Positions 665 through 54,903 of a stretch of 64,000 nucleotides of DNA are shown piece after piece; position 1 is the first letter of the stretch, and each line of letters opens with the position of its first letter. A model generated the notes under the pieces. That model was not told the origin of the DNA, made no database searches, and worked only from the letters and a program-made list of their open reading frames with translations. The DNA is from Medicago truncatula. Its lineage: Eukaryota > Streptophyta > Magnoliopsida > Fabales > Fabaceae. The position numbers and the translations under genes were made by a program. The DNA lies in assembly GCF_003473485.1 (NCBI RefSeq), contig NC_053042.1:34500762-34564761 (forward strand), written 5' to 3'.

Positions 665-2299
665 CTTGGCTTTCAATTTCTCATTTTCAGCCACTACCCA
701 ACACTGATCCTTTTCAAGAACAAACGATTCGTCCTTTTCATCAGTAGAAGCCATTTCATAACCTTCAGTCGCAGCTAATCTTCTGACTAGATAGTCATCG
801 GGCTTTTCAGGGTTCTTCAAGACCACAACATCTCCTACATAAACACGTCTGTCAAAGAAAAATGTCTATCACTAGCAAATAATGGAGAATATACATAACG
901 GGCTGCATATGAAAAAGTCCATTGTCAGATAATCTCTTAACTAACTTTTGTGGAACTTAGGAATAACAAGAACAAAATGGAGTCAGACCAATTTCAAATT
1001 TTGAAATTGACACAGTAAGTTGGTAATCTTTTTACGATGGAGGGTGATGATCATGACTTAGACCATCCATTAGCTTCAAAATAATATTAGTTGCACCACA
1101 AAAAAAAAAAAAAAAAAAAAAACACATAACCACCACCTGGGATGAGCATGAAATTAGTGAAACCACTAGAACCAGCTAATTTATAACTTCATAAATAACA
1201 ATGTCCAAAACAAACGTGTCACTGGGAAGGTTGTTTCCACAACCTTATCGTTGCAGCAAGGCTCGCCCTTGAGCACGCTACTGAATAGAAGAATAACACC
1301 AACCATAGTATTTTCTTACTATGTGAAATCGACGAATCAAATGAAGCCATAATGTCCTATCCTATAATAAATCATATCTAATGCTCCAATATTTAAATCC
1401 AAATCTTAAGCAATAGTTTGATCTATAATTTTCCTTGATCTCCCTCTAAATGTAACTATTGGACAGTCCTCTATCAGATCTACCCTCCTTACTGGTGCGT
1501 CAAAGGGTCTTCTCCTATTGGGTAATGAGGGGAGCCCGGAGGATCAACCACACCACATTGGGCTCAGAGCAACAACACAAGTGAGAGAGACATTACATTT
1601 TTACCCAAAACATTAAGACATTATGTCTATGGGTCCTCTCACTCATAAAGTGTTCAACCTCTACTTTTGGGTCGACCACTAAACTAACTTAAACTTGCTA
1701 CACAACATCTCTGCACATACCCAGACTGAAAACTCTGCCATCTTTTCCAAAATGCAAACTTTTGCTCTAATAATTGATTCCTAAGCTTATATTGTTTGGT
1801 GAGCCACTAATCTACTCGAATTTGTCTCAGCAAATGAAGCACTGACACAGACACTAGACACCGCACACGACAAAATGAAAGGACAAACAATACAAAATAT
1901 ATGAGTATGATTAATTACTTTTGGTCCGGAATCGGTAATCTGCGAACAAGAAGAGTAGCTCCTTTGGCATCAATAGTAGGGGCCATCTCCTCTCCTTTAG
2001 TCCAATGCAAAAAGGTCATCTTTCCATTAGTGAAATGCTTGAAAATAAAATCCATTAGCTCATTATCTTTCACATGACCACCTTTATGATTCTGTCAATC
2101 AAATTTCAGCATTCAAAACAGCTTAACAATAAAATTCGTAACGAAGGCACAATTATTGAAGAAACACACTCGCTTGAAATGAAACCCTAAAAGAGAAATG
2201 AAAAAAGAAATTAAAATGAAGAGATACCTTGTAGCCGAGATCGATGGTGTATTGAGCTTTGGATTGAAGGTAGCGACACCACGTTGTGAAGGAAACCAT
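665..2299 (-). CDS. Mitochondrial inner membrane protease-like protein (S26 family fold), 5' part only
   Basis: Three exons read on the minus strand: 2228-2299, 1919-2091 and 665-848. All junctions are GT-AG and in phase, giving the first 143 residues from an ATG at 2299. The rest, probably about 60 residues, lies beyond the left edge; no further exon was found in 1-664. The protein matches, from memory, the plant group annotated as mitochondrial inner membrane protease / S24-S26 peptidase-like (Arabidopsis At2g31140 type): a short N-terminus, then HWTKGEEMAPT around residues 53-63 and YLVRRLAATEG around 101-111. In active S26 peptidases these two boxes hold the catalytic Ser before Met and a Lys before Arg. 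Here those positions are Glu59 and Arg104, so a catalytically inactive relative is likely. It is divergent from the eL21 gene, with about 1 kb between the start codons. Family assignment is fairly sure; function is not. Confidence 0.72.
851..1916. other. Intron 2 of the protease-like gene, with repeat-derived sequence
   Basis: This long intron holds a poly-A run near 1100-1121 and a block at about 1560-1700 resembling the LTR-like repeat at 55.6 kb. No other coding signal was seen in it. Confidence 0.5.
1557..1705 (-). repeat. LTR-like repeat fragment (TRIM/copia-type fossil), copy 1
   Basis: This block shares a long diverged match, in the same orientation, with 55600-55745 (both contain TTACCCAAAAC, ATGGGT.CTCT and ATAAAGTGT in the same order). 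At the 55.6 kb copy a primer-binding-site-like motif adjoins it, so this copy is read as an old LTR fragment on the minus strand. It is truncated and clearly ancient. Confidence 0.5.
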
Positions 2300-3170
2300 T
2301 GTTGGAGAACAAAAACAACACCTCTACACTCTCTACGTTAAACCCCCCAAAAAATGTAGAACTTGTGATTTCTCGGAGTATAACGTGGCAGATATTAAAA
2401 AAAATGAATTTTAATATTTATTTTCTTTTTTTCTCAAAAAAAAAAAACATATTTATTTTCTTTTTTAGGCAAAAATAATGTTACTTTATGTAGTAAAAAA
2501 AATTACTTTCTGCGGATGAAAAAAAACAGATAATAATTAAAAGAGTCTTCCTTCAATAAAACAAAAAGAGTCTTGATAACAAAATATATTTGTCAATTAA
2601 CCATGGGGTGAGTGAGAAGTTAATCAGCTTGGATTAGGGTGTGTTAAGTTCACTTGAAGAAAAGTGAAGGGAAATCTTATTAATGGAGGAGACGAAAGCG
2701 ACTGAGAATAAATATATGTCTGATTCTTCGAGAAGTTAGGTAGCTCAATCGATTTAAGTTAAAAATTAAAATAGTTTGGGATCGTAGATGCAAACCTAAA
2801 CGAATAAGTTAAAATGCTAGTTCAATTAATTTGAGTTAACAGTTAATTATCAACATTTTGTTATTAAAAAAATATATGCACGGTGAAAACCCCCTATCAC
2901 CTCATAAGTAACACATTATACTATACAACAAAGGGATGAATAATTAAAGAGTAAGAGTTCAAATTCTATAATCGAAAGTGAGTATTTTTGCAATAAAAAC
3001 TGTGAATTGCTAGAGAGATTGAAAAGAGAAAATGTAAAATGCACTTTAAACTACAAATAAAAATTCAAACAATGGTTAAATAAAATTGTCAAATTAGAGT
3101 GCAGGTAAGAAGTGTGTCGGGTGGGAAAAGAAATTCTCAAAAGAATTTGACAAGCAGTAAGATTGAAAGT

Positions 3171-3285
3171 TGAGCCCATTAACAGAAAGCATATAAAAAA
3201 AAAAGCCCAATAAAAAGCAATATTAGGGTTCTTCTTATTCCTCCTTTCTTCTTTCGAGCGGCAGCAGCAACACCAGAAACCCTAG
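3171..3285 (+). promoter_or_regulatory. eL21 promoter: site II and telo-box motifs, pyrimidine-rich leader
   Basis: Two AGCCCA motifs (reverse of site II, TGGGCT) lie near 3173 and 3204. A reverse telo-box TTAGGGTT lies at about 3223, a pyrimidine-rich tract at about 3230-3255, and a forward telo-box AAACCCTAG at 3277-3285, just before the ATG. Site II plus telo-box is the known arrangement of plant ribosomal protein promoters. Confidence 0.7.
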
Positions 3286-3296
3286 AAGAAGGAAAC

Positions 3297-4725
3297 ATGC
3301 CTGCAGGTCATGGTTTACGATCCCGCACCAGAGATTCATTCTCTCGTCCCTTCCGCAAGAAGGGAACAATAGCCTTAGCCACCTACCTCAGGACCTATCA
3401 TATCGGCGACTATGTCGATATTAGAGTTAACGGAGCTGTGCACAAAGGTATGCCGCACAAATTCTACCACGGTCGTACCGGTCGTGTCTGGAATGTGACT
3501 AAGCGTGCCATTGGTGTTGAAGTCAATAAGCAAGTATGTCAAAGCTTCTTATAGTCATCACTTCGTTATCATTTTTGTTTTTTCACTGATTCGTACTGGT
3601 TAATGATTGATTTTACTGTTATATCTGCAAATATATGTCATGTGGTAGTTGTGATGATTTGTTCAATTGATATTTTTTTGTTTCATTTCGAGCTTTCTAT
3701 TCAGGATCCAGTTTAAGTTCATGTTACAAATGAATTGTTGATTGTGTTTTGTTTTATATTAGGTCATTGCTTTGTTCCTTGATTCATTTTGTTGTTTGAG
3801 TTTTGTTTGGATGGATTAGCTTCTGAGTTTTGTTTTTGTTGTTACAAATGAATTGCTGATCGAGTTATGTTTGTTTTTGAAACCTTTTTATAACATTCTT
3901 CAGAAGCCTTTTGATCTTATTTTTACAAGTTCTCTAAGATAGCTTACTGCTTATAGCATATACAGAAACAATTCAATTTTATTTTATCATTTGGAGCAAA
4001 AAAAAAAAAAGCTCTTATCATAATAAGCACCAGTGCTATAGGCTGTCTATCCAAACATGCCCTAAGTTTTTGTTTTCCCCAACTTATTTAAGAGACTTTA
4101 AGTTTAGTCCCTACAAATAATTTCGTTTATGTCAAGGCTCCAATTTCTCACTTGGAACAAATATTATTTAAAGTTTTCATCATAATCACCAATTCATTGA
4201 CAAACCTTAGATGAGGTTTTTGAAGAGACTAAATTGGACATGATGTTTTATATGGACTCAAACCATATTTAACACAAGATTCTTGTAAGTTTTTAGGTTG
4301 TAAGTTAAATGAGATTGAGACGAACATTTTTAATTTCCAGAGAATCTCTTGGATAGAATGTATGATTGTTTCATAATTACCTCAATTTTTTATGTTCTCT
4401 GCAAGTGCTCCGTTGCTTGTAAAGATATTGTTTACTCAATTTTAAAATGTTGCTATTTGTGTTTCAGGTTAGGAACAAGATATTGAGGAAGAGGATCCAT
4501 GTCCGAGTGGAGCATGTTATGCCATCAAGGTGCACTGAGGAGTTCAGATTGAGGAAGATCAAGAATGATCAATTGAAGGCTGAGGCTAAGGCCAAGGGAG
4601 AGGTGATAAGCACCAAGCGCAAGCCAGAGGGCCCCAAACCTGGTTTCATGGTCGAAGGTGCTACATTGGAGACTGTTACTCCAATTCCGTATGATGTCGT
4701 TAATGATCTCAAAGGAGGATACTAG
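3297..4725 (+). CDS. RPL21: Ribosomal protein eL21 (60S L21), complete
   Basis: Two exons, 3297-3533 and 4468-4725, joined by a GT-AG intron after the codon for Gln79. The product is 164 residues, the usual length of plant eL21. It begins [13 protein letters not shown], has the HIGDYVDI and [12 protein letters not shown] segments typical of the SH3-like barrel of eL21 in exon 1, and a basic second half ([16 protein letters not shown]) ending VNDLKGGY. It is a structural protein of the cytosolic large ribosomal subunit, contacting 5S and 28S rRNA near the central protuberance. The upstream telo-box and site II motifs fit a growth-linked ribosomal promoter. No stop or frame problem was seen. 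The intron carries a MITE-like fragment at about 3940-4065. Confidence 0.96.
3940..4065. repeat. MITE fragment of the AGCTTATAAGC family in the eL21 intron
   Basis: The segment contains TAGCTTACTGCTTATAGCATA at its start and GGCTGTCTATCCAAACATGC at its end, with TTTATTTTATC between. The same modules recur in SMC1 intron 1 (6650-7240) and the first patellin intron. The ends form an imperfect inverted repeat. It is a small non-autonomous DNA element of a family spread through this window. Confidence 0.5.
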
Positions 4726-6148: not shown

Positions 6149-9100
6149 ATGCCATCTCTGCACTCGCCAGGCAAAATCCTCCGCCTGGAACTCTCCAACT
6201 TCAAATCCTACAAAGGATTCCAGCAAATCGGCCCTTTCTACGATTTCACCGCCATCATCGGCCCCAACGGCGCCGGAAAATCCAACCTCATGGATGCTAT
6301 CAGCTTCGTCCTCGGCGTTCGCACCAACCAACTCCGTGGCGCTCAGTTGAAAGATCTCATCTACACTTTCGATGATCGTGAGAAAGAACACAAAGGTCGA
6401 AGAGCCTTTGTGAGATTGGTTTATCAGCTTGCGAATGAATCCGAAATCAAATTCACTAGAACTATTACTTCTGCTGGTGCTAGTGAGTATCGGATTGATG
6501 ATAGTGTTGTTAATTGGGATGTCTACAATGCTAGACTCAAATCCTTGGGGATTCTCGTCAAAGCACGCAATTTCTTGGTTTTTCAGGTTTTTTTCCCTCA
6601 ATTTCTTTGTAATTTCTTGTTGATAGTGTTTAACTATGGACTTGTTTGGATAAACAGTTTATTTGCAGCTTATAGAACAAGTACTTTTCATGATAAGCAG
6701 TTATACATAAGCTATTTTTATAGAAAACGATGAAATAAAGTTAAATTGTTTTTTTATATGCTATAAGTTTTTTTATAAGCCATATTTGGGAGCTTATGAA
6801 AATAAGTTGAAAACAGCTTATTTGTTTTTTATTTTAATTTCTTGTTGGTGGTATTTACGAGCACAGACACCAGACACTTTGAAACTACGTTGACACCGGT
6901 AATAATTTGAAATAATTGCAAACATGGCTTCTATTGGAAGTGTCGGCGCTACAATATAGCTTATAAAAACAGCTTGTAGCATATACAAAAACAAGTTAAC
7001 TTTATTTTATCTTTTTCTATAAAAATACCTTATGTAAGCTTTATGCATAAACACTTATTTTTGGCTATAAGCTGTTTATCCAAGCTCTCCAATATGGCCG
7101 AAAAAGCTTGTCCAAACAGCTTTTAAGACAAATTGAAGTTGCACTAAGCTTTTTTTTTTTTTTTTTTTTTTTTTCCGGCTATAAGCTGATTTTATAAGCT
7201 ATAAACTATTTTTATTAGCTATATTCGAAAGCTTATCTTTGTTTTACACTGGAATGGTTGTTGAGTATGGTGAAATTATTTATTGTAGGGTGATGTGGAG
7301 TCGATTGCGTCGAAGAATCCGAAGGAGCTCACTGGGCTTATTGAGCAGATATCTGGATCTGATGAGCTTAAGAGAGATTATGAGCAATTTGAAGAAGAGA
7401 AAGCTTCTGCTGAAGAGAAATCGGCACTTGTTTATCAGAAGAAGAAGACGATGGTGATGGAGAGGAAGCAGAAGAAAGAACAGAAGGAAGAGGCGGAGAA
7501 ACATATTCGCTTGCAGGATCAATTGGTAACTTTATCTGCTTTTGATTTATGTTTGTTTGTGTATAGTATACTTCATAGGCACTTTATTGATATGGAGGAC
7601 AGGTGAATAAAAAAGGAAAATTTTTTGGTATGCTGGACAGCTTATCTGTATTCGTTTGCTGTTTCAGTTGTTCTTGTATATAGGATTTCCCTTCAGAGTT
7701 CATCTTCTATACAAATCAGTCTTATTTCAGTTTAATATTTTCTGTTGGATCTATTAATTTCTTTGCTTGACAGCATTTTCCATTTCATATATGTACTAGG
7801 AATTATGATTGCTACTATCATTATATCATACATTTTTTATTTTCTCTTCAGTTTTTCTCTTGATCTTTATCCGACTGCTTATGGTGAAAATGAAATTCTC
7901 AAATATGTTTTTTTTTTTTCCCTTGCAGAAATCTATGAAGAAGGAACATTTTTTGTGGCAGTTGTTCAATATAGAAAATGATGTTGTTAAAACAACCGAG
8001 GAACTTGAAGCTGATAAAAGAAGCCGTGAAGGTGTTATTAAAGAATTAGAAAATTTTGAACATGAAGCCGGCAAAAAGAAAAAAGAGCAAGCCAAGTATC
8101 TGAAAGAAGTTATGCTACGCGAGAAGAAAATAGCTGAGAAAAGCAATAGACTTGACAAGACTGTGAGTGTTTTTTCTTCTTCTATTTGGGGTGGGTTTTG
8201 GGAATTAGCCACTTAATTTTCTACTCTAGCTATTGAACTTTTCACACAGGTTGATCCTATGCTATGCATCTTAAACATTGCTCGTTTTTAATAGGCTATA
8301 GTGTGACTTGTACATAAGGACTACAGTTTGAATCCTCCCTTTTGAGCTGTTTCCTACTCCTTCGGAAACAAAAATGAAATATATATCTTGGACTATGTGA
8401 AAATCATCTTTCTAAGTTTTTTAGTTTTGTTTCTTCTGTTGATTTTATTTGTTATGCGCCTTGTCGTTTATGGGATTTTTCTGGTTTCTGTCCTCCTTGC
8501 AGCAACCTGAGCTTCTGAAGTTAAAGGAGGAAATGTCTCGTATCAGTACAAAAATTAAAAAAGGGAAGAAAGAGCTTGGCAAAAAAAGGGAAGAGCAAAA
8601 GGGGCACGCCAAAGATATAGCAGACCTACAGAGTGGTATTGAGGATCTTACAGGGAAAATGAAAGACCTAAATGAAAAGGGTCGAAATGTTGGCGATCAG
8701 ATTCAGTTAGATGATAATGAGTTGCAAGAATATTTTAGAATGTGAGTGTTTATCCGCTGCATCACCATTCTATATTTTGTTCTTTTTCGTTTAGAACAGG
8801 ATAATTGCTTAGTGCTCGGAGTGAGCTAAAATCTTATGTTTTTAAACAACAAAGAAATAAATACATAGAAAGGAATACAATGGATATTCCAACCCTTGTA
8901 CAGTTAGAGCCAGAGCACAAAGAGACACTGATAGAACTGGAACCCAGAAACTGGGAAATCGTATTGTGTTTTGGGTTGCACCAACTATCTTATTTGCCTT
9001 TTACCCACTATATACTAATTCCTCTAGTCTTGATTCTAAGCAAAAATACCTCAAATCATGCTAAATAAGAATTTAAGTTGAGTACAATTAATTTTCTTAA

Positions 9101-12100
9101 TTTGAAAAAGTAATTGTATTTTTCACTTCATGAGAACTTGTTCCACGAGAATGAAATGGTTATTGAAAAATAAAATCTATATTAATTGAAGGGTATTTTA
9201 GAAAATGTTTTATTTTTGCTTATAATCAAGACCGGAAAGAGCATGTTATTTGATCATGCTGGTGGGGTAAAAAATGTGTTGACTTTTAGGTATAGTAGGT
9301 AAAACTATTTTAGTATCATGTCATTTTTTTATCTCTTTGTTGAAGAAAGTCTTTATTCCTCATTGGTTTAAATTGCACATTTAATGTCAAAATGAAACGG
9401 ATACAAGAAACAAACATCACTGGCCTGAAGTTTGAACATGTATAGATTAGTAATATTTTGCCTAATATCACGCGGAGGTTTGCAGATGGTGTTAGCTGCA
9501 TATGATATTTCTTTTATTCAGTGGTCGATTTCTTGTTATTTGCCGTTGGCCATGTGTTTCCAGTACTTGGTAGTTAGTATTCTTTTCAACTTTTAATTTG
9601 TTATTGATGTTTCATCTTTCTGCTTTGGAACTTGTGATGATAATGCTGTTATTACAGAAAAGAGGAAGCTGGGATGAAAACCGCAAAGCTTAGAGAGGAA
9701 AAAGAACTTCTAGATAGGCAGCAACATGCTGATAGTGAAGCTCAAAATAATTTGGAAGAAAATCTTCAACAATTAAAAAACCGGGAGGCTGAGCTGGATT
9801 CACAGGAAAAGCAGATGCGAGAAAGGCTTGAAAAAATTCTTGATAGTTCTGCAAAGAATAAGGATGTAGTTGAAGACTTGAATAGACAATTGCGTAAGAT
9901 GAAAGAAGATCATAGTGCATCCAAGTAAATCAACTTGTTATTCTTTTTTATTTTATTTTTCATTTTAATTTAAGGTATCCTACTGCATTACAGACTTCAT
10001 TGTGGACATTTGTGAAATGATATGTGCTACTTTTGTTCTGCAGGAGAAGGTATGATAACTTGAAGATAAAAATTGGCGAAATAGAAAATAAACTACGTGA
10101 TCTGAAGGCGGATCGCTATGAAAACGAGAGAGATGCTAAATTGTCTCAGGCTGTGGCAACTCTGAAACGCTTGTTTCAAGGAGTCCATGGTCGCATGACT
10201 GATCTTTGTAGGCCTACACAGAAGAAGTATAACCTAGCCGTTACAGTTGCTATGGGTAAATTAATGGATGCAGTTGTTGTGGAGGATGAAAAGACCGGGA
10301 AGGAATGCATCAAGGTCAGTGAGATTTCCCAATATCCTAGTTTGTCCCTTTTTATTTTTCAAAACTTTATGATTATTGATTGCTAAGAAGTTAGACTCTG
10401 TTCCTGTTTGCTGTTGATGGCTATTTTTTTTTTTGCTTTAGATTTTAATACATTTTTCTTATAGTTGATACACAGTGAATAAATTCAGAAAAAAGGAAAC
10501 AAGGTAGAGAACCATTAATAAGTATGGTGGCATCAGCGTATTCTAACATGGACCACCTAGATGGTGGTTCTTGATGTGCCACTAGTTCTGGTCATTAAAT
10601 TCTTCTGGTCTTGCATCCCACACCCTACCAAATTACCCCTTCCTCAATCCATCTTGTAGCGGCCTCACCCTAAATCGTCGGAGCCCATTCCCAACCCTTG
10701 CTGGGCACCCATCTTCTCCCCTCTCCTCCAAAAAAACCCTCGCCTCCTAGTCTACGACAGTAGGAGCAAAAATAAAAAAGAGATGGAAGAAAAAGAAGCC
10801 ATAAAATCGAAAACCAAGGGGTTAGAAGGTTGCAACTTCGACATCCTTCCTTGGAATCAAACCCAGCTAGGTAGTACTCTTGGAGGAAGTGAGATGGGAG
10901 ATCCGTGGTGTGGTGCCAGTTATGACAGAGGCACTTCTGTTTGAGTTTGCATGATGCGTGTGATTGCTGTGAAAGGGCATTAAGGTTAGGAAGAGAGGAT
11001 AATCCGGTATATAGGGTCTACCCTATTACGGTGATGACCAAATTAATCAATGTTGCTTAATGATGGTCCACTGTGGTCCATGTTATAATAGGCCTAGTAA
11101 TGTATCTATATAGGAACACAAATTTTGCTTGCATTGATATTCATGGACTTCAAAATAAGGTAGAAAGTCATGTGAAACATAAACCTTGTGAACTGAAAGC
11201 CCAAACATGAAACTAGCTTCGGGATTTCAAGCTGGTGGACCTACATATTGTTGCCTTTTCATCTATGAGGACCTAAATAATTACATTTAGCCTTCTGCCA
11301 TTCCGGCGGATTTTGTTTGACCCATCTCTTTAGTTGGAATGACAAGATTGCTGTTATGCAGTAGAGTTTTTGTGTTACAATACAAGATGTAGGACTATTG
11401 CTTCCATTTCGTCACTTCCTATTTCTTTGTTTTTTAATAAGATTGTTATATTATTTTTTTCTAAGGCTGTTATATAATTGTTACTGTTGAAAGGCATGCT
11501 TTTCTATCTAATTCTTTGAGGAACCTATGTAACTGCTGAAAAGCTATATCTTTGGTGTAAATATATGCAATTCTTCCTGTTTGAACTTTGAAGTTCTGTA
11601 TATTCATTGAAATTTTTATTATTTTTTTGCTTCTCTACAGTATTTAAAAGAGCAGAGGCTTCCTCCCCAGACATTTATTCCTCTACAATCTATTCGGGTG
11701 AAGCAAATAATGGAAAGATTACGCTCATTAGGGGGTACAGCAAAACTGGTTTTCGATGTGATCCAATATCCTTATTTAACTAGTGGCTACTTTGAGGAAC
11801 CTGGTTGTGAGGGTACAAAGGGTCAAGATCCTCTCCATTTTTTTTTCCACCCTCCATTTTTTTCCATTACCAAAGTTTTGGAAATATAAATGGAATGATG
11901 TGCATTTGGTGGGTCTGATTATTTTTTGTACACTTCAAAACCCTTCAAAACTATAGTAATGGAGAGGGAAAATGGAGAGACAAAATGGAAAGGATCCTAA
12001 CCCGTCTACAAAAGCTTCAAATTTTGCTGTTTGAATTTGTTCTAACACCTCGTTTATAGATCTATTTTGAAATTTACCTTTTAAGCTAGTTTGCCCATCA

Positions 12101-13693
12101 AGACTTCATTGTTTGATGGATTTAAAAAATAAACAATATATGATTTGATGTCAGTCACAGTACTTGAAAATTTCTCAATTTTGAAAAAGCACAAAATGGT
12201 GATAGGTAACCATCCATCGGTTCACTCTTTACCTTTTTATTTACTGCAATTGTTTGTCCAGTGGTTTTCTCCCTACAAATTATTTTTGATTTACATGCTT
12301 CCTGCTAAATTTAGATAGTATTTCAAAATTTTACAGGAATTTGTTTAAACAAATTAAAAAACGAAAAACATACAAATGTCTGTTTTTGTTGGTGTTACCT
12401 TGTCAGTCACGGTGATAGAGCTGCAGTCGATAGTCATCTTTGCATTATCAAAAAATTGTCAGTCTCAATTCTTTTGTTAATCTGCAACATTTTACCATTA
12501 GTATATTGTTCTCACTAATCTAGTGTTGTACTGATCTATGTTTTATCTTCTGTTTATGCATGCTGTTTCCCATAGTTCACTAAAATCAAATCTTCTCGCT
12601 AATTAGACGCAGTTTTTGAAGACAATATTTTGTTCAGTGATTTCCTTTCATCAAAATGCTATTGTATGGTCTATCAATTTAATGTATTCCTATAAAGATA
12701 TTCCACTTATAGATTTTAACTACAGTCTGTAAACATTGAACATAACCCGTTCTTGTATTCTTTCCCCTTTATATGAATACTTCATGAAGTTTTTACTTGT
12801 ATTGATAAATTTTGTTTTAACTAATCTATATGCCTATAGTGAACTTAAAAGTGTTTAAAGCTTTTTAACTTAACTAGTGCAAGTTTGATCCCTCCTTGGA
12901 GAAGGCAATTCTTTTTGCTGTTGGGAATACTCTTGTTTGTGAAGACCTCGAGGAAGCCAAAATTTTAAGCTGGAGCGGGGAGAGGTTTAAAGGTAACAAT
13001 GCCTTCTTGATATTATCTGTTAGAGTATATAATATTCACAGTCTAATTATACTAGATATGCTTAGAGAGAACTAGTGTTAGCTTGCTGTGTAAGATTTAG
13101 TGAGCTGTTAACAGCTGTTGGTTATGACAGCTGTCTCATAAGCCTAGGGATTATAAATATCTGTAATCAATCTCTCATTCATCAGCAGTAATAGAATAAC
13201 AGAATTCAGTTACACTTTTCTCTCTCTCTCTGAGCTTCAAGCTCTTCACACATTCATCAATGGTGATTCCAGTTTTTAACACATATCATTATTACTTAAA
13301 CGGGATACATGGATATCCCTTCCTGTTTTTCTGTGGGTTTTTCCCTCTGGCTTCTTGTTATGCTTTCTGTTTGTCCAGTCAAATTTCGAACTTTTTCTCA
13401 ACTCTATGATCTTCACACCTTGAATTTTTTTGATGTGTTGTTGCTGTCTTAAGTTCTAACAACCCTTTTGCATTTTGAGAATTCTACCATGTATGTGTTA
13501 AATTCCTGGTGCCTTGAAGCTTGGCCGAATACAAACAAATTATTGAACATTTCCATATGTAATTTGATCAGTTGTAACCGTGGATGGAATTTTGCTGACA
13601 AAATCCGGCACAATGACTGGTGGCACTAGTGGTGGAATGGAAGCAAGGTCAAAACAGTGGGATGACAAGATACTTGAAGGTTTGAATTAAATT

Positions 13694-13750
<57 letters not shown>

Positions 13751-16700
13751 TTCTGTTTTGCTCTTGAACTATGCATTCTGTTTTTCAGGATTTGTCAAAA
13801 AGAAAGAGGAGTATGAGTCGGAGTTGGAAGGGATAGGATCAATAAGAGATATGCACGTTAAAGAGTCTGAAACAGAAGGGAAAAAAAGTGGACTTGAGAA
13901 GAAAATTCAATATGCTGAGATTGAAAAGGTAACTTCATGATTTTCACCTTTTTTTTCATAAAAATAAAATAATAATTGTTCTGGCATTCAAGCTGCGCCA
14001 TCCTTTGAAGGTTTTTTGTGTGATACAATTAAGCATGAAAAGCTTGTTTCATTTGTTGTGTGGATACATTTATCTTTTTCTATGTGCTTGCTATGTATGT
14101 GTTTCACAATCAGATGGGAGTGTGGTTTTTTTGAGAATAATGGAATTCTTTTTGGCAAAATCGTGGGATAGAAGATGGAAAGGCGCTATAGTGGACCTGT
14201 TTTGAGATCTGGGTCAAGTTTTCATAAGATGATTGGTTTTAAAAAAGAAAACCCTGATCATGCTGTCTTCGTTCTTTCGATCATTCCACTCGCTTAACCA
14301 TTAGTCCATTTTGCCGTCTGAATCTCTCCCTTGCTCTGCGCCTGCGACGGCACCTCCTCTTTGCACCGCTGCTGCATGTGACTCTCCCTCCTTCTCTGCT
14401 CTGTTCCTGACTCTCCCTCTGTACCCTCTCTTATGCAGCCCAACAGCGCTTAGGTTTAGAATCATCCGAAGGAAATATTTTAGGTTTAAAGCGAGAATTG
14501 GGCCATATGGGCCCTACTTCTAGTGTTATTTTGAGTATGTCCCCCTCTTTTGTTTTGATTTGCCGGAGTCTCAATTAGGCTGCTCTTTTCTTTGTTTTTA
14601 TTTATTTATTTATTAAAGCATAATAACAATACAATAAACCAAATCTATATTGTGAATCCCAGATAGTGGCCACGTCAGACCGTAAACCTGCGGAAGCGTT
14701 TAGCAGGGTAGCTGCTAGAGGTAGGGCCACACTTATGATATAATGAAATGGTCAAAAACTCTAAAATGAAGAAGCTTAACGGATTTAAGAATGGGTAAAT
14801 TAGATATATCAAACAATTGGTCGAGTTACGGCACAACAACGTTATTCGGGTGTGTTTTGGCTGTGGTTTGCAGCCGTGAACACTGTACCTGCAGGAGATG
14901 GGTAGCCTGTAGAACATGTTGCAGTGGACTACGAGTCTGCTCTGTGATTGACTACAGAGAACTGAATTCTAACAATAAATATATTAAATATAAATTGCTA
15001 ATGATGTGGGTGGAGTAATTATTCTTCCCTGTTTATTTTATCTTACTTCTAACTTAACTTATCATTAATTGATATACATAAATGGAAAAGTTAGTCTTAG
15101 ATTAGCTGTTCTTAACAGTCTGTGAAGTGCCACATATGCACTGTTTGTTGTAACTGTTAATAGAGTCTGTTACAGAGTGTGTAGGTTAGCATCTAAGTTA
15201 GTGAAGATTAGTAGTTAAGAAAACAGAATAGAGAGTGTTCAGAAATATCAATTTCCCTTCTCCAAGTTTTCGTTCTATTGCATATCCGACCACCATCTAG
15301 AAATCTTCCCAGATTGGCCTGATTTCCCCATATTTAGATCTTAATACTTCATAGGGAGTTTTTTCTTTCTTTCTACATTCATCCTCCATATCTAATTACA
15401 TAGGAGAGCTTGCAGTATTGGATTATGACTTCATTGTTGGTATTGTGATACTATTCAGTGCTTGGATTTTTAGTTTCTTTTTGTTTTTGCATCTGTGGCT
15501 GGATAAATGCTAGTTTTGGCTGGGTATGGATTGGAAAACCTTTCTTCATTAGTGATTTCTCTGTCTTCTGTTCCTCTTGGAATATTTGAATTTATTTTGG
15601 TTTCACCTTTTACCAGAAAAGCATTGAAGATAAACTTTCAAATTTTAGTCGTGAAAAGGGGACCATCAAAGAAGAAATTAAACGTATTAGTCCAGAACTG
15701 AAGAAGGTGACATTGACAATTCCTTTGTTTATTCATAGCAGTATTCTTGTATACCGAACTTGTTACTTATTGTTTATCTACTGCAGTTAAGAGATGCTGT
15801 TGAAAAGAGGAATAAAGAATTACATACTCTTGAGAAGAGGATAAATGAAATCACTGATCGGATCTACAAAGAATTCAGCAAGTCAGTTGGGGTTGCAAAC
15901 ATTCGCGAGTATGAAGAAAATCGACTCAAGGATGCTCAAAGTCTAGCAGAGGAGAGGCTGAAACTGAGTAGCCAACTTTCAAAATTAAAATATCAGTGTG
16001 TTCCTTCTTCCCTTTTTTTCTTTAATTTATTTATTTTGATACTAATGAAATTGAAAACACTAAATGAGGTACAAGCGTTTCATTTTACAGCGATGATATT
16101 TTATAGCATGCTATTAATAATCTTAGTTTTATACATATATATATATAAAATCAGTTACATGTTTGACTTTTGTACTTGCCAACTAGTTATTTATTCTTGA
16201 ATTGTTTTATGCATACATTTATTAATATTCCTTATTGAAATTATTCTGCAGGTTGGAGTATGAACAAAATCGGGACATGAGTTCACGGATTCAAGAATTG
16301 GAATCTTTCGTAAGTGCTTTGGAGATTGATTTAAAAGGAGTACATACCAAAGAGGCTGAAGCGAAGTTAGCAGCAGAGAAAGTTACTGAAGAGATCAATC
16401 AGTTAAAAGATGAAGTTAAAGGTATAAAAACCACGCCTCATCATTGTATTTTGTTGCATTCTCTCTCTCTCTCCCCCCCCCCCCCCCACCCCATTCCCTT
16501 TTTCTGGGGTTGGGGATGCTATTATTGTGATAGATCGGTTCTCTGTTTAGTACTTCGCTGTTTACCATTTGAAATAAACAGGAACACACTTTGTTGATCT
16601 TGACTGAAGCAGACCCATCATCATTTCAATTTGCTGTTTATTGTTTCTGTCGTTGGAGTTTTATGGTTTCTATGTTTTTCTGCCCTTGTAGAGTGGAAAT

Positions 16701-19700
16701 CAGAGGCAGAGGATCGTGAAAAGGAAATCCAGGAATGGAAGAAGAAGGCTTCTGCAGCCACAACAAGCTTAGCCAAACTTAATCGTTTGATTAGCTCAAA
16801 GGTTAGATGGGTGAAATTTCTATGCCCGTGTACTTTCATGCATAATGCATAGATAGCCAACATCTTTAGTGTCGTTACAGGAGGCACAGATTGAGCAGTT
16901 GATTGGGCAAAAGCAGGAAATCGTAGAAAAGTGTGAACTAGAGCAAATTAGCCTTCCAATCATACCAGATCCCATGGATACTGATACTTCAACACCGGGT
17001 CCAGTTTTTGACTTTGATAAGCTCAGTAGAACACTAAAAGATAGGAGACAATCTGACAGGGATAAAATAGAGGTAGACTTTAAGCAAAAAATGGATGCAT
17101 TGATATCTGAGATCGAAAGAACAGCACCAAATTTGAAGGCATTGGACCAGTATGAGGCTCTGCTTGGAAAAGAAAGAGCTGTAACTGAAGAGTTTGAAGC
17201 TGTCAGGAAAGAAGAGAAGGAAAAAGCCGATAGATTCAATGAAGTAAAGCAGAAGAGGTGCAATATATTTTTTCCTTTCACATTGTCATTATTTGTCTTA
17301 TTTATAATATTAGTACTTAGCCAATAGTTTGGGCATGCATGGTTTTGGGTTCAACTTCATAGCTTCTTTGTCCACTCCGACCGCTATTGTGGTGAAAATC
17401 GCCGCTATAATCTCTACCTTGGCAAGCCCACACCATAAGGTGTAACCCAATCAAGGTGGATTGCGGTGCCGGACTTTTTAATGATTGTCATGGATTGTCA
17501 TGGCCAGTTCGGGAAGGATTGTGTTGCCATGGCGTGTTTTGCCAGCTTTCTATGGCGGACTTTTAGCTTCCCATCATGGTCCACCATAAGGCATTGATAA
17601 ATGAAACTTTTTCTGTGTTCATTTCCTCTAGGGGTGAGAATTGGTTGGGACGAGCAAGACTTTGCTTAGATAGTCCTTGCCTGTCAAAAGAATCTAAGGC
17701 CTAACTGTCGTAGGTTTTATTTTAAGCATGATTTGACCTGTTCAGAATGAACAAACTGAGCTTCATAGTCCAAGTTAATTTTTTTTTATTTTTTATTTTT
17801 TATGATGTAAACATTTTTTAAGGTGTAACCCAATCTTCTAAGAAGTTTAATTGAGTGATAGTCTATTTTGTAACAAGGCATTTATAATTCTCTCATAATG
17901 TGTCCCTGAACAAGCTTATATGTTGAAATTGAACTATCTTAATTAAATTATTGATAAGGTCAATGAACATATGGTTTTAATCACAACTCTACTGCAATCA
18001 TAATATCAAAGTTATTTTTTTTGTTCACTTAAATAGGCTGACCTGTTACGCCTGAAATGTGTTTCAGATGACATTACGCTCAACCTTTTTAGTTAAATAA
18101 ATAGACTTAAAATAGCTTTGACCTGGCTTGGGCCTAAAATAAGTCTAGCTTGATATGGGTCTGATGTAGGCTAAGTCATAGGCCCCCGTCGCTGGACTGG
18201 TCTATTCCCACTCCCTAATTTCATGTTTTTAGTTTTAATTATAAAAATATCACATTGTTTTCATTTTGTTTCTTATATTTAAAGCCTTGCAGAAAAAAAA
18301 CTACAAAAACAATATAAAGCTGTTTTTACTATGATGGAACAATTCTTGGCCAGACTATACTTACCTCATGACCGAACTCCGGATTACCATGTCCCCTTTC
18401 CCTTGGGAACAGAGGGTTAACAAAAAAAAAAAAAAAAGGAAAACAAGGAACTAAAAAGAAAAGATGTATAATTTTTATAATTGACTATATTTATATGCCA
18501 TTGTTTGTCATCTGCCTTTTTGTGAGTCCAGTGTTTATTTATATGTTGAATACAGATATGATTTGTTCATGGATGCTTTCAACCATATCGCTGGTAATAT
18601 AGATAAAATTTACAAACAACTTACAAAGAGCAACACACATCCTCTGGGTGGAACAGCATACTTAAATTTGGAAAATGAAGACGATCCATTTCTGCACGGC
18701 ATGAAGTACACTGCTATGCCACCAACAAAGCGGTTCCGCGACATGGAGCAACTATCTGGTGGCGAAAAGACTGTTGCTGCACTTGCATTGCTGTTCTCCA
18801 TCCACAGGTAGAGTTTTTTGTACTTGTAAAATTTAAGATATCTTTCTAGTTGAGCATATTTGGTTTGAGAAAATATTTTTTGTTTTTTTATCTTAATCAT
18901 AAAGGGTGCCCCTAATATGGTCCCATTTAAGAAGGTCCACCGGTGAACCCATTGTATTGAACCTGCTATAGCTGGTTATAAGTTAACTTCTTTTTTTAAT
19001 CTTATCTTTGTCCAATTATATTCCCTTTTTTCTGCTACAATCTTCTACCCATGTGCAACAAACCCAAATGTTCTTATAAAATTCCAGCCATTCGGTGTTG
19101 CTATGGGAATTGGGGGTTGTATTACATCCGTGTTTGTGTAACTCGAGCGGAGACATGTGAAAAATCCAATTTCTTTAGACACTCGTACGGAGGCGTCATG
19201 CTCCTAAATTCTTCTACCTCAACCAATGGCGTCTGCTTCTTTGTATTGCCTCGCCAGCTAATAAGAACTTTCTTCGCCACTGAATGGTAGAATTACTCGA
19301 CGTTGGCCACCACGACAAAGTTCTCTCTGTGACGGGCACTAGACGACAAGAATAGGTGGCGATGTGGAAAGGAAGATGATTTAGAGGAAACTGAAGAGAT
19401 CGGAGGATCGTGGAGAAAGTGAGAATTTTCCACGGCTTCGGAAGATTCTCTATAACTAGTAGGACTCATAGAAGAATATACATGGTTATAGTTAAGGAGT
19501 ACATTTTTAATACATATTTGTGGTTTAGGGATGAAGAATTGGTTATTACAGGAGGAATAAATAGAAATTATGTTTACTGATAGCTTAACTGGTTACTTGT
19601 TGTGTTGCATGTGAAGTTTAAGAAGAAAGAAGAGTCAACAAGTAAAATCTGGGTCATAACAAGTAAAAGTTTTCTGGATCATTCGAAATTGCATGGATTG

Positions 19701-20678
19701 CTTAAAAAATCTTCTAGCAGGTTGATTCAATACATAATCATGATCTAAGCATGACAACATTTCACTGAGAATAGTCAATCATATAAATCCAAATAAATAG
19801 ATTTAATCGATGTTATTAACAAACATCTCACAATAAACATAGTCACTGACATTGGTGGTGGTTGTATTAATGCGGCGACAGGGGCAATTGGGTGTTGGTG
19901 ATGGGAATAGAAGAGGAAGAAGAGGGGTGCATCCGTATAAAGTAATAATTTTTTTTTCCCTAAATGTGCCAACCGGTAATATCCGGTGTTTTTCAGTGGT
20001 CCACCCATGAACCTTACTCTAACGTGTGCATATTAGGGGCTCCCAATCATAAATCCATCCTTTGTTTTCTGTTTTCAAAGATTTGTATATGCAATCATGA
20101 AGACAAAATATATAAAACAATAATATTTTAGATGGTTCTTGTTTAAATTTTGGTAAGAGTTCATTCAAGTAATAGACCGACACATCTTTGCCTAAAATAG
20201 TTTAATGGATATTTGTTCCACATGTCTATTAACATGGTTCCCACTTCCTTATAATTTCAGTTATAGGCCTTCACCATTTTTCATACTGGATGAAGTTGAT
20301 GCTGCATTGGACAACTTGAATGTTGCAAAGGTTGCTGGCTTTATTCGTTCAAGATCTTGTGAAGGAGCAAGGACTAATCAGGATGCTGATGCCGGATCTG
20401 GTTTTCAGAGTATTGTAATATCTCTGAAAGACAGCTTCTATGACAAAGCTGAAGCGTTAGTTGGGGTTTACAGGGACTCTGAGAGAGGGTAAACTTCTTC
20501 ACATCATGAAATGATATAAAAGTAGTACTTTTTTCCTTTACTATAAGTTGATTGATGGCATAAATATATTCTATTTACCTAGTTTCTTCAAGATATGCTG
20601 GATTGTATACTGATTTTGCGTTTTTGCAGCTGTTCGAGTACTCTCTCATTTGATCTACTCAAATATCGGGAGTCCTAA
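6149..20678 (+). CDS. SMC1: Cohesin subunit SMC1, complete 18-exon gene
   Basis: Exons: 6149-6586, 7289-7525, 7929-8162, 8503-8741, 9658-9924, 10044-10314, 11641-11765, 12883-12992, 13572-13679, 13789-13928, 15617-15706, 15787-15995, 16252-16421, 16692-16801, 16881-17257, 18556-18807, 20261-20488, 20630-20678. Together they give 3654 nt, 1217 residues, about the length of Arabidopsis SMC1. Domains in order: ATPase head with Walker A GPNGAGKS at 38-45; coiled coil to about 500; hinge at roughly 510-680 ([22 protein letters not shown]); returning coiled coil to about 1040; then LSGGEK at 1108-1113 and Walker [13 protein letters not shown] with Asp1136 and Glu1137. SMC1 pairs with SMC3 and a kleisin to form the cohesin ring that holds sister chromatids and folds chromatin. 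All junctions keep frame. All are GT-AG except intron 7, which looks U12-type. Introns hold many repeats, including a 1.14 kb MULE in intron 16. Confidence 0.95.
6650..7245. repeat. MITE cluster of the AGCTTATAAGC family in SMC1 intron 1
   Basis: Multiple inverted modules of ATAAGCTATTTTTAT, AGCTTATGAAAATAAG and GCTATAAGCTGTTTATCCAA fill most of this intron, with a poly-T run at about 7150-7174. A short GTGTCGGCGCTAC segment near 6940 also occurs, reversed, near 35285 in a MEAF6 intron, so at least two small element types are present. Confidence 0.55.
11766..12882 (+). other. Apparent U12-type intron (ATATCC donor) of SMC1
   Basis: The donor ATATCCTTA at 11766 matches the strict minor-spliceosome AT-type 5' site. 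Near the 3' end, CTTAAC at about 12869-12874 lies 8-10 bases from the junction and matches the core of the U12 branch-point consensus. The frame is fixed on both sides (DVIQ before, FDPSLEK after), which places the acceptor after GCAA and so gives AT-AA ends. The intron also carries the MITE at 11820-12002. Confidence 0.7.
11820..12002. repeat. MITE in SMC1 intron 7
   Basis: The terminal inverted repeat starts GGGTCAAGATCCTCTCCATT on the left. On the right, AATGGAAAGGATCCTAACCC is nearly its reverse. The interior is AT-rich with no coding capacity. The target duplication is unclear. Confidence 0.65.
13018..13255 (+). mobile_element. Probable solo LTR of a copia-type element (fossil) in SMC1 intron 8
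   Basis: The segment starts TGTTAGAGTATATAA, holds a TATA-like region (GGGATTATAAATATC) and a CT-rich stretch, and ends in a CA-type terminus near CTCTTCACA. This is the layout of a short copia LTR without internal region. No clean target duplication was seen. The age is probably moderate, since the ends are recognisable. Confidence 0.45.
13694..13747. repeat. (TA)n microsatellite in SMC1 intron 9
   Basis: An uninterrupted TA dinucleotide run of about 50 bases, 40 bases upstream of the exon 10 acceptor. It is probably length-polymorphic. Confidence 0.95.
18895..20053. mobile_element. Non-autonomous Mutator-like element with 9-bp target duplication, SMC1 intron 16
   Basis: The element body is 18904-20044 (1141 bp). 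The left terminus GGGTGCCCCTAATATG and the reversed right terminus GGGAGCCCCTAATATG match at 15 of 16 bases. AATCATAAA is repeated perfectly on both sides (18895-18903 and 20045-20053). A 9-bp duplication is the hallmark of Mutator-like elements. No transposase frame is visible, so it needs another element for movement. The interior has a less AT-rich block (about 19050-19450) that could be captured host sequence; I did not recognise it. It lies sense-neutral in the intron, away from both splice sites. Confidence 0.85.
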
Positions 20679-39682: not shown

Positions 39683-41299
39683 CTAAGGATATGACATCAT
39701 TCTGTTACTACTGCTGCTATGACTAATAGTATCATCAACAATATCATCAATGTCCTCACCAGACATTTCCTCAAGAGATCTTCCCTTTGCCTCAGGCACC
39801 AAGAAAGTAAAACAGAATCCCAAAATGGTAACAGCACCTAAACAAAACAATGAGTTTCTCACACCAATACCAGCAGGGTACCCTGCATCAGTTTTCTTGG
39901 GATCTTGATTCTGTACTAAAAATAAAAACCCGAACGCGCCAACCATCGCTCCAAGCTTCCCTGCTGCAGACGACATTCCATGACAAGTTGATCTAAACCT
40001 AGCCGGGAAAATCTCGGCAGGCACAACAAATGTGGTAGTATTAGGCCCGAAATTTGCGAAGAAGAAGGTTAAGGCATAAAGCACAGCAAACCCAATTTTG
40101 TTCTCTGTTATTGTCCAGTGATCAAAAGGAATAGCAATTGCAAACATAAAAACTGTCATAAAGAAGAATCCCATTAACTGAATAGTGAACCTTCCCATTC
40201 TATCAATGAGTGCCACTGTGAACCAGTAACCAGGAACTGTACTACATAAAGCAATAAGTGTTTGCGCCTTCGCAATTATATAAACCTCTTCCATTGCATT
40301 CATTGTCTTCGGATACCGAATCCAACCAACGGTACAAAAGACATCTTTTTGGAAAAGATTCATACTATGAAATACAACATCAAGGAAAAACCATGTGGAC
40401 ATTGTTCCAAGCAAATGTACACCATGACGCGACATAAATTCCTTTGAAAAAAGTCCAAATTGTTTATTTTCTTCAACATCATCATCTTTTAGAGGTTCAG
40501 CTTTAATATCCATCTTCAAAACCTTAGACATATCTGCCACAGCTTTATCCATATCCTTCGCAACAAGTGCGGTGTAACGCGCGGTTTCAGGCATTGTAGA
40601 TCTTGAATAATAAGTCAATGCAGCTGGAATTGCTCCAAACATTAAGATTATCCTCCAAACATAATCGGCTTCCGGAACAGTTGAACCCGTAGGATCAACC
40701 ACGTAAGGCGGTGCATCGAATTTCGATTTAAATGCAACTGATACTATGATAGCAAATACACCACCTGCTACAATTCCAAAACCCTGCATAGCAAAAACTG
40801 CAGCTACAAACGCCCCACGTGTTTTTTTGTTTGAGTATTCAGACATAATTGTAGCAGAAAGTGGATAATCACCACCAATACCAAAACCAAGCCAGAATCT
40901 GAAGAAGCAAAGAGTTCCCAACACCATTTTTGGTTCATGTCCAAATGAAAGACCAGAACCTAGGGAACAAATAATCATAATGTTTAGAGTGATTCCATAG
41001 ACTGTTCTACGGCCTAGTTTGTCACCGAGCCAGCCGAAGAAGAGTTGTCCGGTAAATGTTCCAACTAAAGCGAGGCCGTTAACTGTTGCTGCAACGTTTG
41101 GTGGCAATGTTCCAGGCTCTTCAGCTCCGTCGACATAGTAATATATACGACCGAGTAGCCTTGTAACAAGCGATATGCAAAATAGATCATATGCATTGGT
41201 GAAGAAGCCCAGTCCAGTAATGGCAATTGCTGTAAAATGGTAACATTGTGTTCTTGCTACATCTAGTGCACTTAGCACCCTGAGATTCTCCCTTGCCAT
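39683..41299 (-). CDS. PHT1-family phosphate transporter, with altered Pi/H+ path residues
   Basis: Single coding exon, 538 residues, plasma-membrane H+/phosphate symporter of the major facilitator superfamily. It has 12 membrane segments and the large central cytosolic loop at about 240-290. The PHT1 signature [13 protein letters not shown] is at 142-154, and the whole length fits the family. Compared with the tandem partner and with the family, this copy has Asn35 in [10 protein letters not shown] (family Asp), His311 in LDVVFHSMN (family Tyr) and Met313 (family Gln). Arg134, Asp144, Trp303 and Asp307 are kept. These changes fall on residues assigned to proton coupling and phosphate contact in PHT1/PiPT work. 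The C-terminus is extended ([13 protein letters not shown]). The reading frame is intact. A 5'-UTR intron (41352-42143, GT-AG) is likely. Confidence 0.95.
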
Positions 41300-41351
41300 G
41301 CCTCAATGTTTTTCCTTCCCCGTCTCGCTATATTAAAATGTTTCTACTTCT

Positions 41352-44475: not shown

Positions 44476-46050
44476 CTATTCTGTAACTACAACAATTTCA
44501 TCAATGTCCTCACCAGACATTTCCTCAAGAGATTTTCCCTTTGTCTCAGGCACCAAGAAAGTAAAACAGAATCCCAAAATGTTAACAACACCTAACAAAA
44601 TCAATGAGTTTCTCACACCAATACCAGCAGGGTACCCTGCATCAGCTTTCTTGGGATCTTGATTCTGTGCCAAATATAAAAACCCGAACGCGCCGACCAT
44701 CGCTCCAAGTTTCCCCGTCGCGGAGGATATTCCGTGACAAGTTGATCTAAACCTAGCCGGGAAAATCTCGGCAGGCACAACGAAAGTGGTTGCATTAGGT
44801 CCGAAATTCGCGAAGAAGAAAGTTAAGGAATAAAGTACAACAAATCCGATTCTGTTCTCTTTATGTGTCCAGTGATCATAAGGAATAGCAAGTGCAAACA
44901 TAAAAACTGTCATAAAGAAAAATCCCATTAACTGAATAGTGAACCTTCCAATTCTATCAATGAATGCAACTGTGAACCAGTAACCAGGAACTGTACTGCA
45001 TAATGCAATAAGTGTTTGCGCCCTCGCAATTTTATAAACCTCTTCAAGTGCATTCATCGTCTTTGCAGACGGAATCCAACCAATTGCACTGAAGATATCC
45101 TTTTGGAAAAGATTCTGACTGTAAAATGCAATATCAAGCAAAAACCATGTGGATGCTGTTCCAAGCAGATGCAAACCGTGACGCGACATAAACTCTTTCG
45201 AAAAAAGCCCAAATTGTTTCTTCTCTTCAGCCGCAACATTTTTAGTTTCAGCTTGAATATCCATGTTCATAACCTTAGACATATCTGCTGCAGCTTGTTC
45301 CATATTCTTTGCAACAAGTGCGGTGTAACGCGCAGTTTCAGGCATCTTAGATCTTGAATAATAAGTCATTGCAGCTGGAATTGCTCCAAACATTAAGATT
45401 ATCCTCCAAACATAATCGGCTTGCGGAACAGTTGAACCCAAAGGATCAATCATGTAAGCCGGTGCATCGAATTTCGATTTAAATGCAATTGAAACAATGA
45501 TAGCAAATACACCACCTGCTAAAATTCCAAAACCCTGCATAGCAAAAACTGCAGCTATAAACGCACCACGTGTCTTTTTGTTCGAGTATTCAGACATAAT
45601 TGTTGCAGAAAGTGGATAATCTCCACCAATACCGAAACCAAGCCAGAATCTGAAGAAGCAAAGAGTTCCCAACACTGTTTTTGGTTCATGTCCAAATGAA
45701 AGACCAGAACCTATGGAACAAACAACCATAACAGCTAGAGTCATGCCATAGACTTTTTTACGGCCTAGTTTGTCACCGAGCCAGCCGAAGAAGAGTTGTC
45801 CAGAAAGTGTCCCAACAAAAGCAACGCCATTAACTGCTGCTGCAACGTTTGGTGGCAACGATCCTGGCTTTTCAGCTCCATCGACATGGTAGTAAATGCG
45901 ACCGAGTAGCTTTGTGACAAGGGATATGCAGAATAGATCGTATGCATCGGTGAAGAAGCCCATTCCAGCTATGACAATTGCTGTGAAATGGTACCATTGT
46001 GTTTTCGCTACATCTAGTGCATTTAGCACCTGGAGATTCTCCTTAGCCAT
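44476..46050 (-). CDS. PHT1-family high-affinity phosphate transporter
   Basis: Single coding exon, 524 residues, strongly similar over its whole length to the partner at 39683-41299 and to Arabidopsis PHT1;1-type proteins ([18 protein letters not shown] start). It keeps the canonical residues: Asp35 and Asp38 in [10 protein letters not shown], Arg134, Asp144 in [13 protein letters not shown], and [14 protein letters not shown] with the Asp and Tyr that contact phosphate in the family. Predicted 12 membrane segments with a central cytosolic loop. It is expected to take up phosphate with protons at the plasma membrane of root cells. The two genes are 3.2 kb apart in the same orientation. A 5'-UTR intron (46072-46419) is likely, its acceptor 22 bases before the ATG. 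Confidence 0.96.
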
Positions 46051-46071
46051 GCCTCAATGTTTTCCTAGTGC

Positions 46072-48534: not shown

Positions 48535-49257
48535 CTAACAAATGACTTGATAAGTACTCAAACTAAGAAGTTGGTCCAAATATTCAGAACCTAAATCTTC
48601 CAACACCAACACATTTTGTGAAACAATATTATTATTATTCTCCATTTCCCTTTCTACCCTTTTGGTCTTTTTGCAATTACTTGCTTTAGACTTTCTTTTC
48701 AAAGTGTGTTTCCTCTTGAGTGCCAAAACAGGAGAAGAACCATCTTTTTCCCAAGACTTGTTATTCTCCATATCTTTCAATGATTCCCTCACAACATGTT
48801 CAGGAAAATTCAACACTGCCATTGATCCTCTTGTTGATAAAGCTGCTTGATCATAAGCTAAAGCAGCAGCTTCAGCTGTATCAAATGTACCAATCCAAAC
48901 TCTAACACCTTTTCTTGTTGAGTCTCTTATTTCCGCTGCGAATTTTCCCCATGGTCTTCTTCTAACTCCTTTGTATGACTTCTTAGGTGATGATGATTGT
49001 ACTAGTTGTGTTGAATTGGATGAAACTTCTTGTGATTCATTGCTGATTTGAGAATTTGAAGTGCTGGAATTGGAATAAGAGGTTGATGATTCTTTGAATA
49101 TTTGTGCACTTTGGTTCAAGGGAAGAGTTTTGTTGTTGTCTTCATTGAAGCTAAAGAAATCTTCCCATGAAAAGGATTCTAAAAAAGAAGAGGTATTTGA
49201 AAATGAAGTGTCAAGGTTTTGGTATTGGATTTGGAAGAATGAAGAATCAAAATCCAT
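48535..49257 (-). CDS. Group IX AP2/ERF transcription factor (ERF1-like), copy 1
   Basis: Single exon, 240 residues from the ATG at 49257. An upstream in-frame ATG at 49392 would add 45 residues with no family resemblance and is rejected. Order: Ser/Asn-rich activation region with a [13 protein letters not shown] acidic-aromatic patch; AP2/ERF DNA-binding domain at about 96-153 ([38 protein letters not shown]); a basic nuclear-localisation stretch ([14 protein letters not shown]); and an EDLL-type motif [18 protein letters not shown] near the C-terminus. The domain binds GCC-box promoters, and group IX ERFs act in ethylene/jasmonate and defence responses. A tandem partner lies at 54160-54903. 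From about residue 100 to the EDLL motif it is nearly identical to that partner. Confidence 0.94.
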
Positions 49258-54159: not shown

Positions 54160-54903
54160 CTAGAAAAAGTCTTGAGAAGAAGAAGTCAAGCTAAGAAGTT
54201 GGTCCAAATATTCAGAACCCAAATCTTCCAACACCAACACATTTTGTGAAACAATGTTATTATTATTCTCCATTTCCCTTTCTACCCTTTTGGTCTTTTT
54301 GCAATTACTTGCTTTAGACTTTCTTTTCAAAGTGTGTTTCCTCTTGAGTGCCAAAACAGGAGAAGAACCATCTTTTTCCCAAGACTTGTTATTCTCCATA
54401 TCTTTCAATGATTCCCTCACAACATGTTCAGGAAAATTCAACACTGCCATTGATCCTCTTGTTGATAAAGCTGCTTGATCATAAGCTAAAGCTGCTGCTT
54501 CAGCTGTATCAAATGTACCAATCCAAACTCTAACACCATTTCTAGTTGAGTCTCTTATTTCCGCTGCGAATTTTCCCCATGGTCTTCTCCTAACTCCTCT
54601 ATATGGCCTCTTAGGTGATGATGATTGTACCAATTGAGTTGAATTGGATGATACTTCTTGTGACTCCGTGCTGACTTGAGAGTTTGAAGTGTTCGAGTTG
54701 GAATCGGAGGTTGATGACTCTTTGAATATTTGTGTGTTTTGGTCAGTGAAATTCATGGGAAAGGTGTTATTGTTAATGTTGTTGTCTTCATTGAAGAAAA
54801 AGAAATCGTCCAATGAAAAGGATTCTAAAAAAGAAGAGGAATTTTCAAATGAAGTGTCAAGGTTTTGGTATTGGAATTGGAAGAATGAAGATTCAAAATC
54901 CAT
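54160..54903 (-). CDS. Group IX AP2/ERF transcription factor (ERF1-like), copy 2
   Basis: Single exon, 247 residues from the ATG at 54903 ([13 protein letters not shown]). An in-frame ATG 27 bases earlier is possible but not matched in copy 1. It has the same organisation as copy 1: acidic-aromatic [13 protein letters not shown] region with an Asn-rich insertion ([12 protein letters not shown]); AP2/ERF domain beginning [18 protein letters not shown] and including [16 protein letters not shown]; basic stretch; EDLL-type motif [13 protein letters not shown]; then a different tail (TSSSQDFF). DNA from about 54195 to 54582 differs from copy 1 at only about six positions, whereas the 140 bases before it in the gene differ at about 20. 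Confidence 0.94.

Follow-up and report, generated by a model that had tools for sequence, protein, structure and literature searches.

Evidence for a minor-spliceosome intron with AT-AA ends in the hinge region of a Medicago truncatula SMC1 gene

Genes of the window

The DNA studied here, hereafter the window, is a 64-kb stretch of the Medicago truncatula genome. Its plus strand carries, across 6164-18826, 16 stretches that match an SMC1 protein encoded elsewhere in the genome, on contig C4. When the two exons that flank the intron described below are joined, they encode a 78-residue peptide that matches the Pfam family SMC_hinge (PF06470) at 1.4e-12 and, in the PDB, the hinge structures of SMC1A, with a best E of 2.2e-16 and 16 distinct sequences at E <= 0.01. 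Judged by this hinge and by the series of SMC1 exons, the gene is a plant SMC1, a gene of cohesin.

Further along the window, two adjacent genes of the minus strand (39683-41302 and 44476-46053), each with one long reading frame, resemble by eye phosphate transporters of the PHT1 kind. Two other minus-strand genes (48535-49395 and 54160-54936), ERF-like by eye, have almost identical C-terminal halves and N-terminal parts that differ, a pattern for which gene conversion is a possible origin.

Position and ends of the hinge-region intron

The SMC1 gene is interrupted within the hinge region by a phase-2 intron of 1,117 bases (11766-12882, plus strand), the ends of which are AT and AA according to an enumeration of the frame-preserving placements and to a comparison with the near-intronless copy of the gene on C4. 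The exon on the 5' side (11641-11765, plus strand), which encodes part of the hinge domain, finishes with CTG GTT TTC GAT GTG ATC CA, the last base being 11765, and its final CA belongs to a split CAG codon. The exon on the 3' side (12883-12992, plus strand), which is covered by the SMC_hinge match and is followed by a GT-AG intron, begins with G TTT GAT CCC TCC TTG GAG AAG, the G completing the glutamine codon CAG. By frame analysis and by comparison with the C4 copy, the 3' junction reads AA|G (12881-12883, plus strand), and the AG found one base past the AA end shifts the frame when it is paired with the U12-type donor.

With AT-AA ends, the predicted spliced product is LVFDVIQFDPSLEK and the junction expected in the mRNA is GTGATCCAG|TTTGATCC; a CAA at this place would point to TA-AG ends, and the absence of the residues VIQ to a GT-AG intron. 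Were the intron retained, the first in-frame stop would be encountered at 11887-11889 (plus strand), within a transposable element of the MITE type. The initial annotation had set the junction after GCAA, arguing from the frame and from an alignment with the human protein; this placement is supported by the PDB alignment with SMC1A, in which dviqfdp stands over DVIRYEP at the junction, and by the C4 copy.

A MITE in the intron and a partial duplicate of the gene

The MITE, which had been noticed in the initial annotation and proves to be real, occupies 11820-12003 (plus strand) and has 22-base terminal inverted repeats, 19/22 alike, and a 9-base target duplication, GTCTACAAA, the length of which we take to suggest a Mutator-like element. 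The inverted-repeat search reported no pair at the thresholds of the tool, although the ends are alike to this extent. In the whole genome the element has 22 matches, including itself and its copy in a partial duplicate of the SMC1 gene on contig C1.

This duplicate (C1 29804233-29814799) matches the window from 8171 to 18143, with longer blocks mostly 81-92% identical, lacks the 5' and 3' ends of the gene and is probably a pseudogene. It also contains the MITE, with GTCTACAAA intact on both sides, whereas in the window gene four bases of the left-side duplication are missing. The insertion of the MITE is older than the C1 duplication. Fifteen bases at the donor and the last 16 bases of the intron are identical in the two copies, which share the AT-AA ends. 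Identity at the splice sites (15/15 and 38/40) is not clearly higher than the background of the intron body (773/836, or 92.5%), and it therefore bears on the quality of the assembly and not on selection.

A near-intronless SMC1 gene on C4

Using the joined 78-residue peptide as a query, we searched the genome (430 Mb, 42 contigs) and obtained five matches: two to the exons of the window gene, two to those of the C1 partial copy, and a fifth, without interruption, on C4 (C4:16297156-16297389, minus strand), which has 87% identity over all 78 residues and is part of a 1,136-codon open frame. Of the 17 intervals compared, the corresponding SMC1 gene, located within C4:16293000-16299999 on the minus strand, is without an intron in 16; the intron that it retains is a GT-AG intron of 264 bases, the counterpart of which in the window gene measures 1,453 bases (18808-20260). 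Once this intron is removed, the C4 gene encodes 1,208 residues, from MSLGK to TKYRES. It looks like a copy made through RNA and kept as a retrogene, and a crude estimate of its divergence from the window gene (dN 0.13, dS 0.48, ratio 0.27 over 1,052 codons) suggests that its protein has been under constraint.

At the place of the hinge-region intron, the C4 gene reads GATGTGATTCAGTTTGATCC, ungapped, with VIQ present and the codon CAG. Its reading GTGATTCAGTTTGAT supports the junction 11765|12883 indirectly, by way of an old copy: since dS is about 0.48, the copy records splicing as it took place in an ancestor, in which the ends of the intron were possibly different.

We then scored junctions with the C4 gene as a guide across the 17 intervals between matched blocks. 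For the intron under study the best score was that of AT-AA (48/54 bases), equalled by AA-CA, a one-base shift from which the same mRNA results. As a control, GT-AG was among the best ties in 13/16 other intervals; two of the 3 misses have unaligned sequence at the junction (8155/8518 and 9831/10044), and the third is the interval in which the C4 gene retains its intron.

Donor and branch-site motifs

The 5' splice site, ATATCCTTA (11766-11774, plus strand), is the same in the C1 partial copy and agrees with the pattern |RTATCCTT of U12-type introns. An AT-class donor of the minor spliceosome, as first proposed, is thus present directly at the exon end defined by the frame. Taken alone, the octamer ATATCCTT is nothing special, with 6 occurrences in the 64-kb window against 4.18 (sd 2.06) expected; its weight comes from its location exactly at this exon end, the probability of finding it at one preset position being about 3e-5.

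The U12 branch site has the consensus TTCCTTAAC and lies roughly 8-20 bases away from the 3' end of the intron. The branch-like CTTAAC that had been reported near the 3' junction is found at 12869-12874 (plus strand), ending 8 bases ahead of the final base of the intron (12882), and agrees with the consensus at 7/9 positions. Among 20,000 order-1 Markov sequences generated from the same intron, 0.5% had CTTAAC in the branch window (p = 0.005); the looser 7/9 match to the consensus was reached by 5% of them (p = 0.05), and for this reason we consider the branch element to be supportive, not decisive. A second possible element, TTTTTAAC (12862-12869), is altered to TTTTGAAC in the C1 partial copy, in which CTTAAC is retained; this is no more than a hint that CTTAAC may be the branch, because the intron bodies of the two copies are in any case 92.5% identical.

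Between the branch element and the 3' splice site there is a CTAG (12874-12877, plus strand), the AG of which must be skipped, and which with the U12-type donor shifts the frame. If CTTAAC is the branch, this AG would be skipped because it is too close to it.

These motifs suggest that the donor |ATATCCTTA and the element CTTAAC would be recognised by U11/U12, that the CTAG, situated practically at the branch site, would be passed over, and that the 3' cut would separate AA12882 from G12883, at a distance of about 9-10 bases from the branch adenosine. Removal by the minor spliceosome, the identity of the branch adenosine and any help from CENATAC are steps that we infer. From the sequence, the frame and the near-intronless copy that bears the predicted joined sequence, we consider it very probable that the hinge-region intron of SMC1 is a genuine minor-spliceosome (U12-type) AT-AN intron with AT-AA ends, as the initial annotation had read it; the C1 partial copy agrees with this reading.

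Other placements of the intron

A script enumerated the in-frame and stop-free placements, the donor end being allowed anywhere in 11752-11835 and the acceptor anywhere in 12839-12923; it printed the placements whose ends were GT-AG, GC-AG or AT-AC and those that use an ATATCCT donor. None of the 20 placements printed for this range was an in-frame AT-AC intron, and in the same range there was no in-frame, stop-free GC-AG placement. With the U12-type donor, the sole placement that preserves VIQ plus F is the one with AT-AA ends.

Shifting both cuts by one base in the 3' direction would give a TA-AG intron, with the exon reading ...CAA|TTT, in which an unusual donor is paired with an AG acceptor of U2-like type. 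The frame and the amino acids would be unchanged, the two mRNAs differing by one silent third-position base (CAG with AT-AA, CAA with TA-AG), and the two placements had initially been presented as equally non-standard. They are not, since TA-AG places the cut inside the donor motif of the U12 type, which stays whole only under AT-AA, and gives CAA where the C4 copy has CAG; against that copy it scores 47/54 bases. A TA donor located within a U12 motif has, to our knowledge, no precedent. Over the third positions compared between the window gene and the C4 copy, G stays G in 201/269 cases and A becomes G in 41/321, and for glutamine codons CAG corresponds to CAG in 15/20 cases and CAA to CAG in 2/14. 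The codon comparison therefore favours AT-AA over TA-AG with a likelihood ratio of about 5 to 6; the CAG and the VIQ retained by the C4 gene fit AT-AA. We regard TA-AG ends as highly improbable.

The intron could also belong to the major spliceosome, with a GT-AG pair that starts from the donor GTGATCC at 11758. This donor is in frame with four AG acceptors of the scanned range, and these are the four in-frame GT-AG placements obtained, but each of them deletes VIQ, whereas the C4 copy and the SMC1A structures retain DVI plus one residue here. Moreover, GTGATCC is a weak donor, and ATATCCTTA would then have no reason to be where it is, eight bases inside the intron. The chance that this placement is the right one seems to us very slim.

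An assembly error near 12880, which had been named as a possible refutation and for which one base change would be enough to restore AC, is unlikely in the extreme, as the C1 partial duplicate, five megabases away, has the same intron end and the same first exon bases.

Minor-spliceosome components and CENATAC genes

RNA-family searches of the genome found U12 snRNA genes at 2 loci, 8 matches for U6atac (7/8 over the cut-off) and 8 for U11 (8/8 over the cut-off). U4atac had 0 matches in the genome, which does not imply its absence, and no match in the controls either, those controls that matched for other families being prokaryotes; the U4atac of Arabidopsis was found by a special search (PMC545797).

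The genome encodes seven copies of CENATAC/CCDC84 (PF14968), one on C3 (C3:48937381-48939491) and six in tandem on C2 (C2:19844250-19886608), with exons that encode two C-x2-C...H...H motifs, recognised by eye. The six C2 copies have 99.0-99.2% identity with the C3 copy over 2.4 kb, and copies about 99% identical may reflect either a recent amplification or a matter of assembly. Autoregulation of plant CENATAC is mentioned in PMC8280824; it is not seen in the C3 copy, in which no exact U12 motif, ATATCCTT or GTATCCTT, was found (851-3600 of the reversed locus). A genome-wide search with the pattern ATATCCTTAAC and a gap, an ill-chosen pattern, matched 60 times on the forward strand and 84 times on the reverse, without relevance to the SMC1 intron.

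A possible link between CENATAC and cohesin

In Arabidopsis, SMC1 is TITAN8, and titan8 is the smc1 mutant. We take TITAN-LIKE to be the orthologue of CENATAC and assume that Arabidopsis SMC1 carries the same intron, which is the premise of what follows. On these assumptions SMC1 might be a key mitotic target of plant CENATAC, the loss of which would starve the cell of cohesin through the AT-AA hinge intron. This is an unproven prediction, and one that we think rather unlikely to hold as such. If true, it would explain why the Arabidopsis titan-like mutant resembles titan8, and the near-intronless SMC1 gene of C4 would be a built-in bypass, free of the minor spliceosome at the site of the intron.

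Two atypical C2H2 motifs are present in TITAN-LIKE, which takes part in the nuclear divisions of the endosperm; these divisions are defective in the zinc-finger mutant titan-like (PMC9370812). In human cells, AT-AN introns, AT-AA included, need CENATAC, the loss of which affected 92% of A-type introns in HeLa cells and leads to chromosome segregation errors (PMC8280824); in the main text of that paper SMC1 and cohesin have 0 occurrences each. Our literature search found no paper that joins CENATAC with TITAN-like.

The SMC1 intron offers a concrete candidate route by which the AT-AN factor CENATAC could control plant cell division through cohesin, and it connects a plant protein at the core of mitosis with an AT-AN intron. 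The case for this AT-AA minor intron is also a clean one: the gene, essential for chromosome cohesion, has a natural near-intronless copy as a witness from the same genome, an example of how gene copies derived from RNA can resolve unusual splice sites in the absence of RNA-seq.

Comparison with known AT-AA introns

The literature search, which included At3g54670 and Medicago SMC1, found no printed record of the SMC1 intron in the article texts that it covered. In the IAOD table, 'other' ends account for 0% of the U12-type introns of soybean (PMC7367187), and the annotation of legume genomes may therefore miss AT-AA introns. The initial annotation had called such introns very rare, which is overstated, as they are the commonest non-canonical type of minor intron in plants and animals; in plants they represent almost 75% of the non-canonical minor introns, which are themselves about 4% of conserved minor introns (PMC10639083).

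With canonical U12-type AT-AC introns, the SMC1 intron has in common the donor motif, the branch-like element and its distance, and it differs by its last base, which is A and not C. With the human A-type (AT-AN) introns that depend on CENATAC/CCDC84, the loss of which has a mitotic phenotype in human cells (PMC8280824), it shares the class of termini; CENATAC dependence is a feature of the human introns, to which the SMC1 intron is likened by its termini alone. Finally, the AT-AA minor introns known from plants and animals, as presented in PMC10639083, have the same AT donor with ATATCC and the same AA end, with no structural difference found between them and the SMC1 intron, which belongs to an already known class, uncommon but known.
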